Of a stretch of 42,946 bases of DNA, positions 34,763 to 42,946 are shown one piece after another. The stretch's first letter is position 1. Every line of letters begins with the position of its first letter. The position numbers and the translations under genes are program-made. The stretch is from Clostridia bacterium. GTDB taxonomy: Bacteria; Bacillota; Clostridia; Christensenellales; CAG-314. Where the stretch lies: contig JAVVRZ010000001.1 of assembly GCA_036654455.1 (NCBI GenBank), positions 407,332-450,277 of the forward strand. Reading direction: 5' to 3'. Below the pieces are notes generated by a model, which was given only the letters and a program-made list of their open reading frames with translations, was not told the origin of the DNA and made no database searches.

Positions 34763-34792
34763 ATTATATATTTTTTGTTACTACAATGTCAA
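34763..34792 (-). promoter_or_regulatory. Consensus promoter of the comEA-comEC-holA operon
   Basis: On the minus strand, a perfect TTGACA (34787-34792), an 18-base spacer and a perfect TATAAT (34763-34768) lie across the 3' end of the DUF1667 gene. The start would be near 34756. This separates the competence/holA unit from the flavoprotein operon in front of it. Confidence 0.75.
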
Positions 34793-35102
34793 TACCTAAT
34801 CCTAAACAGTTGCTCAAAACAACGTCGCCAATGCTTACGGGGTGGGTTAAAACAACATCTTTAAGCAAAGCTAAAATGTCAAATAGTTTATTTTTAGGCA
34901 CTTCGGCGCTACTCTTTACAGGCACAACTTGATTAGTATTTGTTTTAACAAGGCTTGTCAACATTCTTTTGGGCAATGAAAACTCTTGTTTTGCGTAAAT
35001 TTCACCACGCTTACAAGTATTTCCCGACACAATAAGTTCCTGACCTACTTTTTCAACCGTTATTTGACAGCCCAAAGGACAATTAATACAAGTAAGTTGC
35101 AT
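34764..35102 (-). CDS. DUF1667 Fe-S protein
   Basis: This is a 112-aa protein. The N-terminus has CINCPLGC and a fourth cysteine in NTCKRGEIYA, an arrangement like the [4Fe-4S] site at the start of molybdopterin oxidoreductases, although no molybdenum domain is present. DUF1667 proteins occur in Firmicutes directly after the two flavoprotein genes seen here and probably act as the third subunit. It lies three bases after the flavoprotein gene. Its probable task is electron transfer from the glycerol-3-phosphate dehydrogenase-like complex. Confidence 0.9.
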   Translation of the reverse strand: MQLTCINCPLGCQITVEKVGQELIVSGNTCKRGEIYAKQEFSLPKRMLTSLVKTNTNQVVPVKSSAEVPKNKLFDILALLKDVVLTHPVSIGDVVLSNCLGLGIDIVVTKNI

Positions 35103-35105
35103 AAA

Positions 35106-36347
35106 TTAAACCTCCAATTTAACTATTAGGTCGTTGGTAATTGCCGACTTGTCTAGTTCTACGCTGACCATTTCGCCGGGCGACATTACTAAGTAAGCTC
35201 TACTTAATATCTTTTGCTCGCCACAATAAATTACAAGTTTTGTTGATTTATAAGTCTTATCTACCCTTAAAAACAGTTTAACTTTGCCTTCGCCTTGACA
35301 AATTTGTTGAGGAAGGGCATATCTTACGCCATTTGCGACCGAAACGGCAAATTTTTGAGTAATAGGTAATTTATTTAAGGCATATAGCCCAGCGGATTTG
35401 CCTGCTAAAAGTCCTTCTGCGGAAACGTTATCGACAAGGTCGTGAACGTGTAGAGTATTGCCACAAGCAAAAACTCCGCTGATTGAAGTTTGACGATTGT
35501 CGTCTACAATCGCCCCGCTAGTTATGCGGTCAAATTGCATATTAGAGGAGGCTACAAGGTCATTTTCGGGAATAAGTCCAACTGAAAGTAACAAAGTATC
35601 ACATTCGACTATGCGTTTAGTAGATTCTATCACACGCATTTTGTCGTCAACCTCGGCAATTTCAACTGCCTCGACACGAGATTTGCCAATTATTCTTGTA
35701 ACCGTAGTAGAAAAATATAGCGGAATATCAAAGTCATTAAGACATTGTACAATATTACGCTTTAATCCGCTAGAATATGGCATAACTTCGCAAACCATCA
35801 ATACTTTTGCGCCTTCAAAAGTCATACGACGAGCCATAATTAAACCAATATCGCCCGAGCCTAATATGACAATTTTTTTGCCGACAAGATAGCCTTCGAT
35901 ATTACATAGTCGTTGCGCAAGCCCTGCGGTAAAAACTCCGCTAGGACGGTCGCCTGCTATATTAATAGCGCCTGCCGAACGCTCTCTACAACCCATAGCT
36001 AAAACAACGGCGTTACAAGTGATTTCAAGTATGCCTTTACTTGCAGAAACTACCGTAAGGCTCTTTTGCTGTCCGTCAAGACGCATATCAATTACAAAAG
36101 TTGACAACATTGTGTCAATATTAGCGTCGTTGACCAAATTTACAAATCTTTGCGCATATTCTGGACCGGTAAGCTCTTGCTTAAAATAATGTAGGCCAAA
36201 GCCATTATGAATACATTGATTAAGAATACCGCCAAGTCTTGCGTCACGTTCGATAATTAATACTTTTGCATTTTGTTCTTTGGCGGATAAAGCGCTAGCT
36301 AGCCCCGCCGGACCACCGCCAACGACTACGACATCATAATGTATCAT
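35106..36347 (-). CDS. NAD(P)/FAD-dependent oxidoreductase (GlpB-like partner)
   Basis: This 413-aa protein has VVVVGGGPAGLASALSA for FAD, VILGSGDIGLIMARRM-type second Rossmann motif and GVFACGNTLHVHDLVDNV near the ribityl site. A C-terminal domain of about 90 residues follows. It overlaps the GlpA-like gene by four bases and is followed by DUF1667. In clostridia this set replaces GlpB/GlpC of the anaerobic glycerol-3-phosphate dehydrogenase. The substrate is assigned by context only. Confidence 0.88.
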   Translation of the reverse strand: MIHYDVVVVGGGPAGLASALSAKEQNAKVLIIERDARLGGILNQCIHNGFGLHYFKQELTGPEYAQRFVNLVNDANIDTMLSTFVIDMRLDGQQKSLTVVSASKGILEITCNAVVLAMGCRERSAGAINIAGDRPSGVFTAGLAQRLCNIEGYLVGKKIVILGSGDIGLIMARRMTFEGAKVLMVCEVMPYSSGLKRNIVQCLNDFDIPLYFSTTVTRIIGKSRVEAVEIAEVDDKMRVIESTKRIVECDTLLLSVGLIPENDLVASSNMQFDRITSGAIVDDNRQTSISGVFACGNTLHVHDLVDNVSAEGLLAGKSAGLYALNKLPITQKFAVSVANGVRYALPQQICQGEGKVKLFLRVDKTYKSTKLVIYCGEQKILSRAYLVMSPGEMVSVELDKSAITNDLIVKLEV

Positions 36348-37768
36348 AATTCCTCCTTGATGTTTGCTAGGATAATTTCGCTACCCTTGCCAAGTTTGGT
36401 GACTTGCCGTAATGGAATTTTTCTCTCTCGGGCGATAATTTCCATAACACGTTGAGTACAAAAACCGCCTTGACAACGCCCCATACCAACACGCACTCGG
36501 CGTTTAAGGGCGTCAAGTGAACTCGGCTTTAAGGGCGAATTTAATGCGTCGACAATCTCGCCTTCGGTTATGCGTTCGCATCTGCATACCATCTTTGCAT
36601 AAAGCGGATTGCTTTCAATTAATTTAGAAAATTCTTCTTTGGTCATATCTCTTGTCAACGGCCTATGCAAACGAGGCAAAAAGGTCGGCTTTTTTGTCAT
36701 AACAATATTTGTCTTAGGCAACATCACTTCTGCAACGTGTAGCGCAATCGCAGGGGCAGAAGATAGCCCGGGCGAACAAATGCCTGCAAGCGTAATTAAA
36801 TTATCCTTTTGTTCAATTACAAAGTCACCGCCAAACGATGCCCTTACTCCCGCAAACACACGTATGCTCTTGCGAAAGTTAACATTCTTTAACATTTCGC
36901 TAACGCTTGCTTTAATATAATCAAGTCCGCTAGCTGAAACTGCGGTATCATCGCCGTCGCTAACGGCAATAGAAGTAGGTCCAAGTATAACGTTTCCGTC
37001 TGCCGTAGGCGACACAAGCACGCCTTTGCCACGTTGGTCGGGCAATGGAAAACAAGTATGCGTGTAGTTCTTACGCTCCACGCTATCTAATATAAAGTAG
37101 TCGCCACGAGTATATAAATAGTCAATTTTGCTACCGCCGGCAAGAGCGTTAATCTTGTCTGCGCCGTAGCCTGCGCAGTTGATTAAAACCTTGCAATCGT
37201 AGACGCCCTTATTTGTTGTCACTTTAAAGCCGTTGTTTGTGCGTGTAACGGCAGTAACCTCGCTTTCGAACATTACCTCAGCGCCATTTATTACAGCTTG
37301 TTCGGCAAGCGCAATCGTCATTTCGTAGGGCGAAACTATACAAGCGCTAGGGGCATAAAGTCCGTAGCAAATGCAATCGGCTATGTTTGGCTCTTTTAAA
37401 AGCAACTGCTGTCTATCAAGAATTTGTAGCCCCTCTACTCCGTTAAGCAGTCCCCTTGCAAGTAGAGTTTGTAGCCCCGACAGCCCGTCTTCTTTTGCAA
37501 GCACAAGCGAACCATTATTAATTAGAGGCACGCCAAGTTCTTCTGCAAGCGCCTTGTACATCTTATTGCCCAAAACGTTAAACTTCGCCTTTAATGAGTT
37601 GCAAACGGCGTCGTAGCCGGCGTGAACTATACCGCTATTTGCCTTAGAGCAACCGCACGCAACGTCTTCTTCCTTTTCGAGCATAAGCAATCTAAGATTA
37701 AACTTAGATAATTCTCTTAATACGGCAGAACCAACAATTCCTCCGCCGATTACAATGCAATCATACAT
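36344..37768 (-). CDS. GlpA/LhgO-like FAD dehydrogenase with C-terminal BFD domain
   Basis: This 474-aa DAO-family flavoprotein has the N-terminal FAD motif CIVIGGGIVGSAVLREL, GCSKANSGIVHAGYD and a C-terminal BFD-like [2Fe-2S] domain (CRCERITEGEIV, then MGRCQGGFC). The order of partners (this protein, flavoprotein, DUF1667) matches the clostridial anaerobic glycerol-3-phosphate dehydrogenase. 2-Hydroxyglutarate oxidase (LhgO) is the main alternative, since the two share COG-level similarity. A plsY gene 1 kb away also handles glycerol-3-phosphate. It is first of the operon with a promoter at 37802-37830; GGTGTG precedes the ATG. Confidence 0.85.
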   Translation of the reverse strand: MYDCIVIGGGIVGSAVLRELSKFNLRLLMLEKEEDVACGCSKANSGIVHAGYDAVCNSLKAKFNVLGNKMYKALAEELGVPLINNGSLVLAKEDGLSGLQTLLARGLLNGVEGLQILDRQQLLLKEPNIADCICYGLYAPSACIVSPYEMTIALAEQAVINGAEVMFESEVTAVTRTNNGFKVTTNKGVYDCKVLINCAGYGADKINALAGGSKIDYLYTRGDYFILDSVERKNYTHTCFPLPDQRGKGVLVSPTADGNVILGPTSIAVSDGDDTAVSASGLDYIKASVSEMLKNVNFRKSIRVFAGVRASFGGDFVIEQKDNLITLAGICSPGLSSAPAIALHVAEVMLPKTNIVMTKKPTFLPRLHRPLTRDMTKEEFSKLIESNPLYAKMVCRCERITEGEIVDALNSPLKPSSLDALKRRVRVGMGRCQGGFCTQRVMEIIARERKIPLRQVTKLGKGSEIILANIKEEL

Positions 37769-37801
37769 AAATTACACACCTTTAAATTATTTTTCGAAGT
37801 C

Positions 37802-37830
37802 ATTATAACAAATATTGACAATATAGTAAA
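37802..37830 (-). promoter_or_regulatory. Predicted promoter of the GlpA-like operon
   Basis: On the minus strand, TTTACT (37825-37830), a 17-base spacer and TATAAT (37802-37807) predict a start near 37795. It is separate from the ncRNA terminator at about 37932, so the operon and RNA are independent units. Confidence 0.65.
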
Positions 37831-37931
37831 GAAATATGGCAAGTGATTATTAAAGACTGATAAATATAACAATTATTATAAATTTTAATGCAAAACAAAA
37901 TTGAAACAATACAATTAACCAATATTTGGAC

Positions 37932-38145
37932 AAAAAAACAACCCGCCTTACCTGTCACTACGCATTAAATCAACCTGACATAATCAGGTGGGTAATCTGT
38001 CTTAGATTTCTGTCTTCCACTGGGTCGTTTGACCACGCTAACTCAAATATGAGCCGTCGAGGCGTGACATAATGTTAAGAACTCAATTTCCCTTATTTAC
38101 TTTGTGGTTGACGCAAAAAGCTTAGCCAACAGTTCAAGCGGGTCT
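37932..38145 (-). ncRNA. Independently transcribed structured ncRNA of about 214 nt
   Basis: This 440-base stretch has no protein gene, but it has a promoter (38152-38180) and ends in a T-run (37932-37938). The 5' and 3' ends pair: 38136-38143 with 37941-37949, eight pairs including one G-U. The pairing then extends from 38128-38132 to 37952-37956. Inside are at least four hairpins: 38034-38038 with 38062-38066, enclosing 38040-38045 with 38050-38055; 38023-38026 with 38031-38034 (competes with the first); 37994-37998 with 38004-38008; and 37973-37978 with 37984-37989. The multi-branched plan differs from the rod shape of 6S RNA. The raiA-motif RNA class and 6S RNA are both candidates I cannot confirm. 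No tmRNA, SRP or RNase P signature was seen. Confidence 0.75.
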
Positions 38146-38151
38146 ACAATT

Positions 38152-38180
38152 ATTATAGCACAAAATTTTTAATTTTACAA
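38152..38180 (-). promoter_or_regulatory. Promoter of the ncRNA
   Basis: On the minus strand, TTGTAA (38175-38180), a 17-base spacer and a perfect TATAAT (38152-38157) place the start at about 38145, directly before the first paired bases of the RNA. Confidence 0.8.
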
Positions 38181-38186
38181 TATTTT

Positions 38187-38215
38187 AATAAAAAAAGCTT
38201 AACCAAACGGTTAAG
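38187..38215 (-). terminator. Intrinsic terminator of the small membrane protein gene
   Basis: GCTTAACC and GGTTAAGC pair around a four-base loop, followed on the minus strand by seven Ts. The stop codon of the gene at 38211-38648 lies within the stem, so terminator and coding end overlap. Confidence 0.88.
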
Positions 38216-38648
38216 CCAAAGCGACAACGACATTATAAAGTTTAAGAAAATTTACAAGACCATAAATACCGTAAAACAAATTAAGACCAACGCACGCTAT
38301 ATATATCCAAAACACAACGCCATCTCGCTTGATATTGTATCCGTACCATTTAAAAGCCATTGAGGGCGAAATAAATATATCGCTAAAAAATTCCTTAACA
38401 CGATAAACAACGACTTTAAACGCCTCGTTGAAACCACCGCTAAACATAAATGCCAGTACAAACAGCGTACCTACTGCGCCGGCAAAACACATCGCTTGGT
38501 AGAAATTAAGCTCTACGCTAACTTGTGGTTGACAAGCGAGAAATAGGCCGTATAGTATAAAAAATAATACGATTGGTATGCCACAGGCAACGGCTACAAT
38601 TATAAGCACGCCCTTATAGGGCTGTTTTTTCTGTTGATCTTCGTCCAT
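38211..38648 (-). CDS. Small membrane protein of unknown function, probably leaderless mRNA
   Basis: This 145-aa protein has a charged N-terminus (MDEDQQKKQPYK) and about three hydrophobic helices at 13-34, 48-69 and 112-138. I do not recognise the family. The start codon has no ribosome site: the base after TATAAT-GTACAA is the A of ATG, so the transcript should begin at or next to the start codon. No other in-frame ATG precedes residue 51, and a terminator overlaps the stop, so this is a compact single-gene unit between the ncRNA and plsY. Confidence 0.72.
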   Translation of the reverse strand: MDEDQQKKQPYKGVLIIVAVACGIPIVLFFILYGLFLACQPQVSVELNFYQAMCFAGAVGTLFVLAFMFSGGFNEAFKVVVYRVKEFFSDIFISPSMAFKWYGYNIKRDGVVFWIYIACVGLNLFYGIYGLVNFLKLYNVVVALA

Positions 38649-39914: not shown

Positions 39915-41615
39915 CTATACTGAATATGGCAATGTATAGAAACCGCTAGCGTAAGAGATAAGGTCTCCTAATACATTATATCCGTAAACCGTAATCCAAA
40001 CTTCTAGATTAAAGGTTGTTGTGACTTTTGCGCCCTGGATTAATCTATATTCGCCACAGCCATCGAAATAATACGCTTTTGCATTATCGGCGTTATTTAA
40101 CGTAACAAGACCGAATGTTGAACCAAGCGGTAAACCTTCCTTTAATGTGTCGGTAGTTAAATATTGATTGCCAAGGCTAGCGTCTAATTTTTCATACATC
40201 TTTAATTTCTTAAAGCCGGTATTAAATTCATAATTTAACGCAAATAGAGAAGCGTTAATATTCTCATTGAAAATCATTACCGGATAAGCTCCCTTATACT
40301 CATTATCCTTAGAATTAAAGCTATGAGTAGTGACTGACAAACTAACGCTATAACTTACGATATCTTTGTTTGTGTGCATAAACTTAATCTCACTATTAAA
40401 TGGTAAGTTTGATAGAGTGTTGTTATAAGCCGTTTGGGCGTCTGCGTCTAATAAGCTTGCTACATCTGTAAGTTTATTGCCTGTAAAATCAACTTTTGCG
40501 CCTACTGCGTCAAGATTTGCTTGCTTAATAGTAGGCTCAATATTGCCGTCGCTAGATGTTGGAGTTTTTCCAAAGTTAACTCCGTCTCCGGAAAATTGTA
40601 CTCTATGTGCGATCGCCCAAATACCATTTATCGCAATCATGTTAGTTTTGATTGCTTGTATATTATTCCATAATCTTACCGTTGGCTGACCATTAGTAGT
40701 TGTTAGAGTTATTTTACACTCACTTGCATACCCAATTAGATTGCTTGCATACTGCCCAATAGAATGGACAGTAACGTAGGAATTTACATTTGTAAAAGTA
40801 CAATTTGTCGCTATCGCCTGTCCTTGTGGACGAGCGGTATAACATATAAATACGCCGTAGTATGTGTCACGCGTTAGTACTTCTCCGTATACGTTAAGGT
40901 CTATAAACTTAGATTCTGCTTTTTTCGCCACAACAGGATAAAGAGCGCCGTTAGTTCTTACAAGCGAAGCATTTCCGCCTAAAAATACGCTACCATTACG
41001 TATAGCGATTATTTCTGCGCAATTAACCAAATATGTCTTAATACCGCTTATTGCAAATCCGCCTAAGTCGATATCAGCATTCTTGACCCAACCAATGCTT
41101 TTGTTACCGCCATCGGCATTAAAATCGATATTATTTGTAAGCTTATAATATGTTTTTGTAGCTCCGTCTGCTTTTGCGTCTTCTGTTTTAGATATTTTTT
41201 GCCATTGTTCGGTAGTAGAAATAAGGTAAGGATTATTTTCCGTACCATCGCCATCGGTAAAATCAGCGGTTAAGCTAGCGACTACAAGATATTCGTAATT
41301 TAACTTAAATTGCGGGGCTGTTTTGTAATAGATAGTTGCAATTCTTTTGCCAACAGTAGTTAAATTGAAGTTATCTACGACAATATTTGCGTCGTTGCAC
41401 TTAATGGGATGTTCCGTACCATTTTCCGTTGTAATCTTCAATTCAATAGCTGTAAGGGCGGTTGTTCTGTCTGCTTCATTTGCGCTTTTTTGATATTTAA
41501 TACTTGGGGCGCTAACAAATTCAATCTTTTTAATGTCTTGTAATGTGGCGCAAGCAAATAGTCCGCACCCTATGACTAAACAAAGCGTAATCGCCAGTAA
41601 TTTTTTTAGTTTCAT
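39915..41615 (-). CDS. Predicted surface lipoprotein with Ig-like and GLUG-type segments
   Basis: This is a 566-aa protein. A lipoprotein signal peptide ends in GLFAC with the lipid-bearing cysteine at C22. Residues about 30-110 look like a bacterial Ig-like domain. GDGTENNPYLISTTEQWQKI (about 142-161) is the opening typical of GLUG/pectin-lyase-like surface repeats, and the strand-rich region after it fits that fold. A further beta-rich region fills the C-terminal half. AAGGAGAG lies before the ATG and the gene follows its upstream neighbour by 22 bases. Roles in adhesion or glycan binding are guesses. Confidence 0.8.
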   Translation of the reverse strand: MKLKKLLAITLCLVIGCGLFACATLQDIKKIEFVSAPSIKYQKSANEADRTTALTAIELKITTENGTEHPIKCNDANIVVDNFNLTTVGKRIATIYYKTAPQFKLNYEYLVVASLTADFTDGDGTENNPYLISTTEQWQKISKTEDAKADGATKTYYKLTNNIDFNADGGNKSIGWVKNADIDLGGFAISGIKTYLVNCAEIIAIRNGSVFLGGNASLVRTNGALYPVVAKKAESKFIDLNVYGEVLTRDTYYGVFICYTARPQGQAIATNCTFTNVNSYVTVHSIGQYASNLIGYASECKITLTTTNGQPTVRLWNNIQAIKTNMIAINGIWAIAHRVQFSGDGVNFGKTPTSSDGNIEPTIKQANLDAVGAKVDFTGNKLTDVASLLDADAQTAYNNTLSNLPFNSEIKFMHTNKDIVSYSVSLSVTTHSFNSKDNEYKGAYPVMIFNENINASLFALNYEFNTGFKKLKMYEKLDASLGNQYLTTDTLKEGLPLGSTFGLVTLNNADNAKAYYFDGCGEYRLIQGAKVTTTFNLEVWITVYGYNVLGDLISYASGFYTLPYSV

Positions 41616-41637
41616 AATGTTTACTCTCCTTATTTTT

Positions 41638-42946
41638 TTATATTATTTTTTGATATATCAAGTCGCCATTATAGCGAATTTTTATAGTGTAACCCGTGTA
41701 GTCAGCAACCTCTGTATTCGTAAATAAATATGTAGTATGGTTTACACAAGTCAACGTGGTAGAACCTGTTTTTTCTAACGTTACGACATATTTACTAAGG
41801 TCATTTAAATTGGTTAGATATTGCGTATAATAAGGCAAACGTATCTTAACTATATTTGCGCCTTTTGAGATAGATACTGCGGTAAAATAGCCGATTTTAT
41901 CTAAATGCCCTATTAACAAATTACGAGAGTCGTAAATTTTGCCAACATAAACTATGCAGTCGGTGACAAACGTTCTGTCAAAAGTAACCGAACTTGCAAT
42001 GCTTGGCATACCCGCTGTTTCTAAGCAAGGCAATATTTCGGCATAATTTTTCCCGTCGGTTGGCGCTTTTACAGTAGTCCCCCACGAATAAGACTTTGCC
42101 ACGTTGACTTGTATATTATTAAGCTTCTCTGCCGATTGATTGATTGCCCCCTGCTCATACAACACATCGCTATTGTTAACAAATACGTTAGCGCCTATTA
42201 GGGTTGAAAAAGCGCCAACACAAACGATTTTTACGCTATCGGGAAGTTTTATGGTTGAAAGAGTAGTCGAGTTGCCAACAGTGCTATACAAGCTTACGCT
42301 TTCATATTTGGCGCTTGGTATAATTGTAACGCCTAAGTCAAATACGATATTGCTCGCCATTCTCAATTCATTTCCTCTTTGGGTAATTGTATTGTTAGAT
42401 TGCGAAATATATATGATTGGGTTTGTAGTAGGGTCAAACTTATCTAAGTGAGCTTTTACGCTTTGATTAAGTTTGTTTGCCGTAGTTTGCTCTGCAACGC
42501 CTGCTATAATAGTAGCAAAAGACGTACTTATATGGTCTGCATAACTTCTTATTTGCTTAATTGCATTAGAAATGACGTTGTCGCCAAAGTCAAAATATAA
42601 GTAGTTTTTGTCAGTAGACAAAGCCGAAACATCGTTAGCGTAAATCGACGTTGTCTCCGCATAAGCTTGATTAGGCGTGTAATCATAGGCTAATTTAACG
42701 CTACCCTCTATTGCGGTCTTAGTGTTAGCTAGCTTAACTTCGCTACGAACGGTATCATACCAAATAGAGTTACCCGACGAACTAGCTGTTGGGGTTAAAC
42801 CGCTTGCAACAATAACGTTGTACGCAGTGTGATAATCTATTGACTTTAAGCCTGTCTCTAATTTATAAATACCTAATTGATCGTTCATATTTGTAACGTT
42901 GGTTGTGTCGTTGCTAACCCTAGCTCGCTCTATTATTCCGCCAAAC
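41638..42946 (-). CDS. Large extracellular protein, partial (start beyond the right edge)
   Basis: The frame has an internal ATG at 42888, but it stays open to the window edge: the upstream residues read FGGIIERARVSNDTTNVTN with no stop. The true start lies outside, so more than 435 aa are visible. Much of it is T/S/N-rich and beta-like. A region around 190-240 from the internal Met (TTLSTIKLPDSVKIVCVGAF) resembles a BspA/LRR_5-type leucine-rich repeat. The C-terminus carries a small Ig-like region, and no anchor was seen. It is translated just before the lipoprotein and probably forms a cell-surface or secreted pair with it. Confidence 0.7.
   Translation of the reverse strand, partial: FGGIIERARVSNDTTNVTNMNDQLGIYKLETGLKSIDYHTAYNVIVASGLTPTASSSGNSIWYDTVRSEVKLANTKTAIEGSVKLAYDYTPNQAYAETTSIYANDVSALSTDKNYLYFDFGDNVISNAIKQIRSYADHISTSFATIIAGVAEQTTANKLNQSVKAHLDKFDPTTNPIIYISQSNNTITQRGNELRMASNIVFDLGVTIIPSAKYESVSLYSTVGNSTTLSTIKLPDSVKIVCVGAFSTLIGANVFVNNSDVLYEQGAINQSAEKLNNIQVNVAKSYSWGTTVKAPTDGKNYAEILPCLETAGMPSIASSVTFDRTFVTDCIVYVGKIYDSRNLLIGHLDKIGYFTAVSISKGANIVKIRLPYYTQYLTNLNDLSKYVVTLEKTGSTTLTCVNHTTYLFTNTEVADYTGYTIKIRYNGDLIYQKII

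Follow-up and report, generated by a model that had tools for sequence, protein, structure and literature searches.

A divergent 6S RNA from an uncultured Clostridia bacterium with a score below the Rfam gathering cut-off

Among small RNAs, 6S RNA is widespread; it mimics an open promoter and blocks RNA polymerase. The closest well-described relative considered here is 6S-1 RNA (bsrA) of Bacillus subtilis, for which the architecture and mechanism were taken from PMC8876501 and in which synthesis of the short product RNA (pRNA) starts at C40 (PMC8876501). We analyzed a 42,946-nt stretch of genomic DNA from an uncultured Clostridia bacterium (the window), which carries a real, divergent 6S RNA (Rfam RF00013) on its minus strand, from about position 38145 to 37932. 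We assign a probability of about 0.97 to the reading that the locus is the organism's only 6S RNA gene, with its own promoter and an RNA of ~214 nt that is organized into closing stem, central bubble and apical arm. Our analysis establishes the gene and, by covariation, its fold; it also shows that the RNA is orthologous to accepted 6S RNAs and that an RpoD-type sigma factor is present in the genome. The RNA adds a lineage member to a known family, with an apical tip that varies slightly.

At default (gathering) thresholds, an Rfam search of the whole window returned two tRNAs only, and permissive settings were therefore needed. Under these settings, RF00013 matched the RNA region (431 nt searched) with 31.7 bits and E = 7.9e-5, which falls short of the curated gathering score of 46.4 bits and yet spans the full model (positions 1-187 of 187, window 37939-38144); besides 6S, no Rfam family was significant in this region. 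Across the whole genome (assembly of 1.37 Mb, 95% complete) the match has E = 6e-5 and is the sole match to 6S. The RNA shares with RF00013 (6S/SsrS) the full-length alignment, the closing stem, central bubble and apical arm, a similar length, and the occurrence as one copy per genome with orthologues above the cut-off. It differs in its score and in about 30 extra nucleotides at the apical tip, which form two small hairpins. The RNA looked unclassified because the version of this gut-Clostridia lineage scores under the usual database cut-off. A preliminary description of the locus had left the class of this structured RNA open and suggested that it could be a divergent member of the raiA-motif or 6S families or something undescribed. 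The full-length match, together with sister-genera orthologues that pass the 6S cut-off, speaks for 6S and leaves an undescribed class unsupported; the apparent orphan is thereby explained, and its identity as 6S RNA is not surprising.

Matches to RF00013 were present in 47 of 61 genomes (60 related genomes and this one), and 26 of them exceeded the cut-off. Low scores are typical of the lineage, since just 9 of 37 same-family genomes (this genome included) passed. Searches by blastn with the window sequence gave hits in genomes G005, G010, G015, G007 and G001, with E-values of 4e-14 to 1e-7. These coincided with above-cut-off RF00013 matches in the same-family relatives G010 (56.3 bits), G015 (52.6 bits) and G001 (51.7 bits) and with a match somewhat below the cut-off in G007 (39.2 bits). 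A covariance model of the lineage (R1), built from 14 relatives with this genome excluded, matched the window RNA end to end (37928-38151) with 121.7 bits and E = 4.1e-33; its next match across the whole genome had only E = 0.55. By RF00013, blastn and R1, the gene is an orthologue of accepted 6S RNAs, and it is unique in the genome. R1 also found 6S candidates in G006, G014, G016 and G017, all four missed by RF00013 and none part of the training set, and in further families of the order (G037, G038, G040, G049, G050) its hits fell on the RF00013 coordinates. Of 23 family genomes searched with R1, 20 yielded a 6S RNA; some of the 23 had contributed to its training. The Rfam cut-off for 6S hence misses many members in this family of gut Clostridia, a finding that is of use in annotation.

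The RNA gene lies in a region of ~440 nt (37769-38210) without open reading frames of at least 80 aa, as had been noted before; the frames that do occur are short, no longer than 51 aa, and resemble chance ones. The features of the locus are collected in Table 1. The 5' end was placed from the -10 box and the 3' end from the T-run. The upstream site, previously described as a strong promoter, is promoter-like in its consensus matches, its 17-nt spacer and a TG preceding the -10 box; the T-run also stood. As judged from sequence, the stretch from promoter-like site to T-run would form a separate transcription unit close to the ~200 nt expected for 6S RNA. On the same strand it is flanked upstream by a terminator-like hairpin (38217-38196) and downstream by the promoter-like site of the next gene (37830-37802).

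Table 1. Positions of the 6S RNA gene and its elements in the window
Feature	Position	Strand	Evidence
6S RNA gene, about 214 nt	37932..38145	-	RF00013 and R1 matches; covariation in 15 sequences
Promoter-like site, -35 TTGTAA (38180-38175) and -10 TATAAT (38157-38152)	38152..38180	-	10/12 consensus matches
T-run past the closing stem, probable 3' end	37932..37938	-	most relatives have a T-rich run after the stem
Closing stem P1, 5' arm, GACCCGCUU	38136..38144	-	predicted fold; helix 1, 98% of cells paired
Closing stem P1, 3' arm, AGGCGGGUU	37940..37948	-	predicted fold and covariation
P2, 5' strand beside the bubble, UCAACC; predicted pRNA template	38106..38111	-	Rfam consensus pairing and A2
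P2, 3' strand, GGUUGA	37970..37975	-	Rfam consensus pairing and A2
Central bubble, 5' side, ACAAAGUAAAUAA	38093..38105	-	conserved CAAC(C/U)AC motif in A2
3'-central-bubble hairpin, ACCUG/CAGGU	37973..37989	-	each position paired in 13 to 15 of 15 sequences
Apical (internal) arm, starting at GGG (38092-38090) paired to CCC (37992-37990)	37990..38092	-	helices 4 to 7
Apical hairpin H1, GGCUC...GAGUU	38040..38055	-	helix 8, 90% of cells paired
Apical hairpin H2, GGUC AAAC GACC, the other hairpin of the apical junction in this lineage	38023..38034	-	stem-length test

Folding energy by itself would be weak evidence for a structured RNA. The minus strand is predicted to fold with -60.8 kcal/mol as compared to -52.6 +/- 4.3 kcal/mol for shuffled sequences (z = -1.9; 8 of 200 shuffles as good), and the plus strand reaches z = -1.05. 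Because the single sequence only modestly beats its shuffles, comparative support was needed. It came from an alignment of 15 sequences (A2), in which 93.4% of cells are paired across 43 pairs in eight helices. Sliding the partner columns by 1-3 positions left 33-51% of cells paired, a control that is somewhat favourable since the A2 structure was partly derived from the same 15 sequences. Two-sided changes occur at 20 of the 43 pairs and in 64 cells (19.9 in shuffles), with none of 500 shuffles reaching any of the covariation measures; in helix 5 alone, eight of nine pairs show them. Covariation supports the arrangement of closing stem, bubble and apical arm. For P2, whose five UCAAC pairs are invariant in all 15 sequences, and for the likewise invariant GGG/CCC helix, covariation speaks neither for nor against pairing. 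The stand-alone, structured minus-strand RNA of the preliminary description is confirmed, decisively, by relatives that carry the same RNA with strong covariation, and its end-to-end pairing corresponds to the nine pairs of the closing stem in the predicted fold. The multi-branched shape given there applies only to the apical tip with its two small hairpins; overall, the RNA has the closing stem, bubble and apical arm of 6S RNA.

The motifs that flank the bubble, GUCAAC(C/U)AC, GGG, CCCACC and GGUUGA, are nearly invariant in A2. The first of these sits at the site where 6S-1 RNA templates its pRNA, which as a sign of pRNA templating is only suggestive. As housekeeping partner, a single RpoD-type sigma factor passes its cut-off in the genome (TIGR02393 match, 401 bits, G000:C1:58573-59283). 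From membership in the 6S family, the most likely mechanism is that the RNA would mimic an open promoter, hold sigma-A RNA polymerase by its active site when nucleotides are scarce and dampen transcription when growth slows. On return of NTPs, the polymerase would start a short pRNA opposite C38104 (5'-GUGGUUGACGC...), with the 5' side of the bubble and the adjoining P2 strand as template; such pRNAs are predicted to begin with 5'-GUGGUUGAC. We infer this start, a G at about nt 42, by analogy with C40 of B. subtilis 6S-1 (PMC8876501). Like 6S-1 RNA, the window RNA has a 3'-central-bubble hairpin. Here, however, the hairpin shares GGU with the P2 strand and so competes with P2, which resembles the release mechanism of E. 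coli. Synthesis of the pRNA might unwind P2 and free the GGU for the hairpin in the 3' bubble, whereupon the RNA would be released.

The alternative that the RNA belongs to the raiA motif or another described large RNA class is suggested by its similar length, its intergenic setting in a Clostridia genome and its closing stem. It has next to no chance of being correct, as a permissive search to E = 10 brought up neither raiA nor any other large bacterial RNA family but 6S, and it was ruled out by the 6S match and by orthologues above the 6S cut-off. The score under the Rfam cut-off and an apical branch unlike that of most of the order could also be explained by an undescribed RNA that converged on the 6S shape or evolved away from it, such as a 6S descendant that has lost the block on RNA polymerase. 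We consider this very improbable: within the lineage, conservation is highest at the motifs flanking the bubble, as would be expected if RNA polymerase still selects them, and the genome has no other 6S RNA.

The genomic setting bears on a further proposal, that the RNA is a 5' leader acting in cis on the downstream FAD oxidoreductase gene, which resembles glycerol-3-phosphate dehydrogenase. This gene lies on the same strand, and an FAD oxidoreductase also follows the 6S RNA in G001 and G007. However, the T-run and a separate promoter-like site lie between RNA and gene, in G015 and G024 the RNA adjoins other genes and no FAD oxidoreductase follows, and the RNA matches a trans-acting family. 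A leader role was rejected on these grounds and is even less probable than a converged or derived RNA. In the window, the downstream neighbours are a run of FAD-dependent oxidoreductases and DUF1667 (34764-37768, minus strand) that is operon-like, comprises an FAD oxidoreductase with a BFD-like [2Fe-2S] domain, a pyridine nucleotide-disulphide oxidoreductase and DUF1667, and looks like an anaerobic glycerol-3-phosphate dehydrogenase-type set. Upstream lie a gene for a 145-aa protein without Pfam match (38211-38648, minus strand) and a glycerol-3-phosphate acyltransferase gene; a similar-looking 141-aa protein is encoded at the corresponding position upstream of the 6S RNA in G007 (L031 996-1421). 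Two neighbouring minus-strand ORFs of 566 and 416 aa at 39915-42888 are both without Pfam match.

The 6S RNA of this lineage departs from B. subtilis 6S-1 also at its apical tip, which comprises 38 bases in the window RNA as compared to eight in the Rfam consensus. The two hairpins found there are a lineage variation and are kept in family relatives with changing sequence, whereas sequences from most other families of the order, inspected by eye, have one apical hairpin (G054 apparently two). H2 misaligns in an RNAalifold analysis of the apical segment alone and was for this reason tested by stem length. Summed over 27 relatives, stem length was 105 as compared to 82 +/- 4 in shuffles, none of 2000 of which reached it, a supportive result only, given that some segment boundaries are rough and the sequences related. 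It is tempting, if rather unlikely, to propose a lineage-specific form of 6S RNA in which a conserved two-hairpin junction caps the apical arm (the '-35'-like side) and might change the contacts to the sigma factor or serve to bind a further partner.

G054, a member of the same order, has two RF00013 matches above the cut-off (L007, L078), which are probably 6S paralogues. No relatives in named genomes came up in a protein scan. In a DNA motif scan, the named carriers of the lineage motif were nearly all uncultured Clostridia; rabbit ('Lapin'), goat, sheep and roe deer samples were the source of several of them. One record titled 'Corallococcus sp.' (L102, JAMPAB010000018.1) carries the Clostridia-type 6S motif and is either mislabelled or derives from a Clostridia genus that bears the name Corallococcus.
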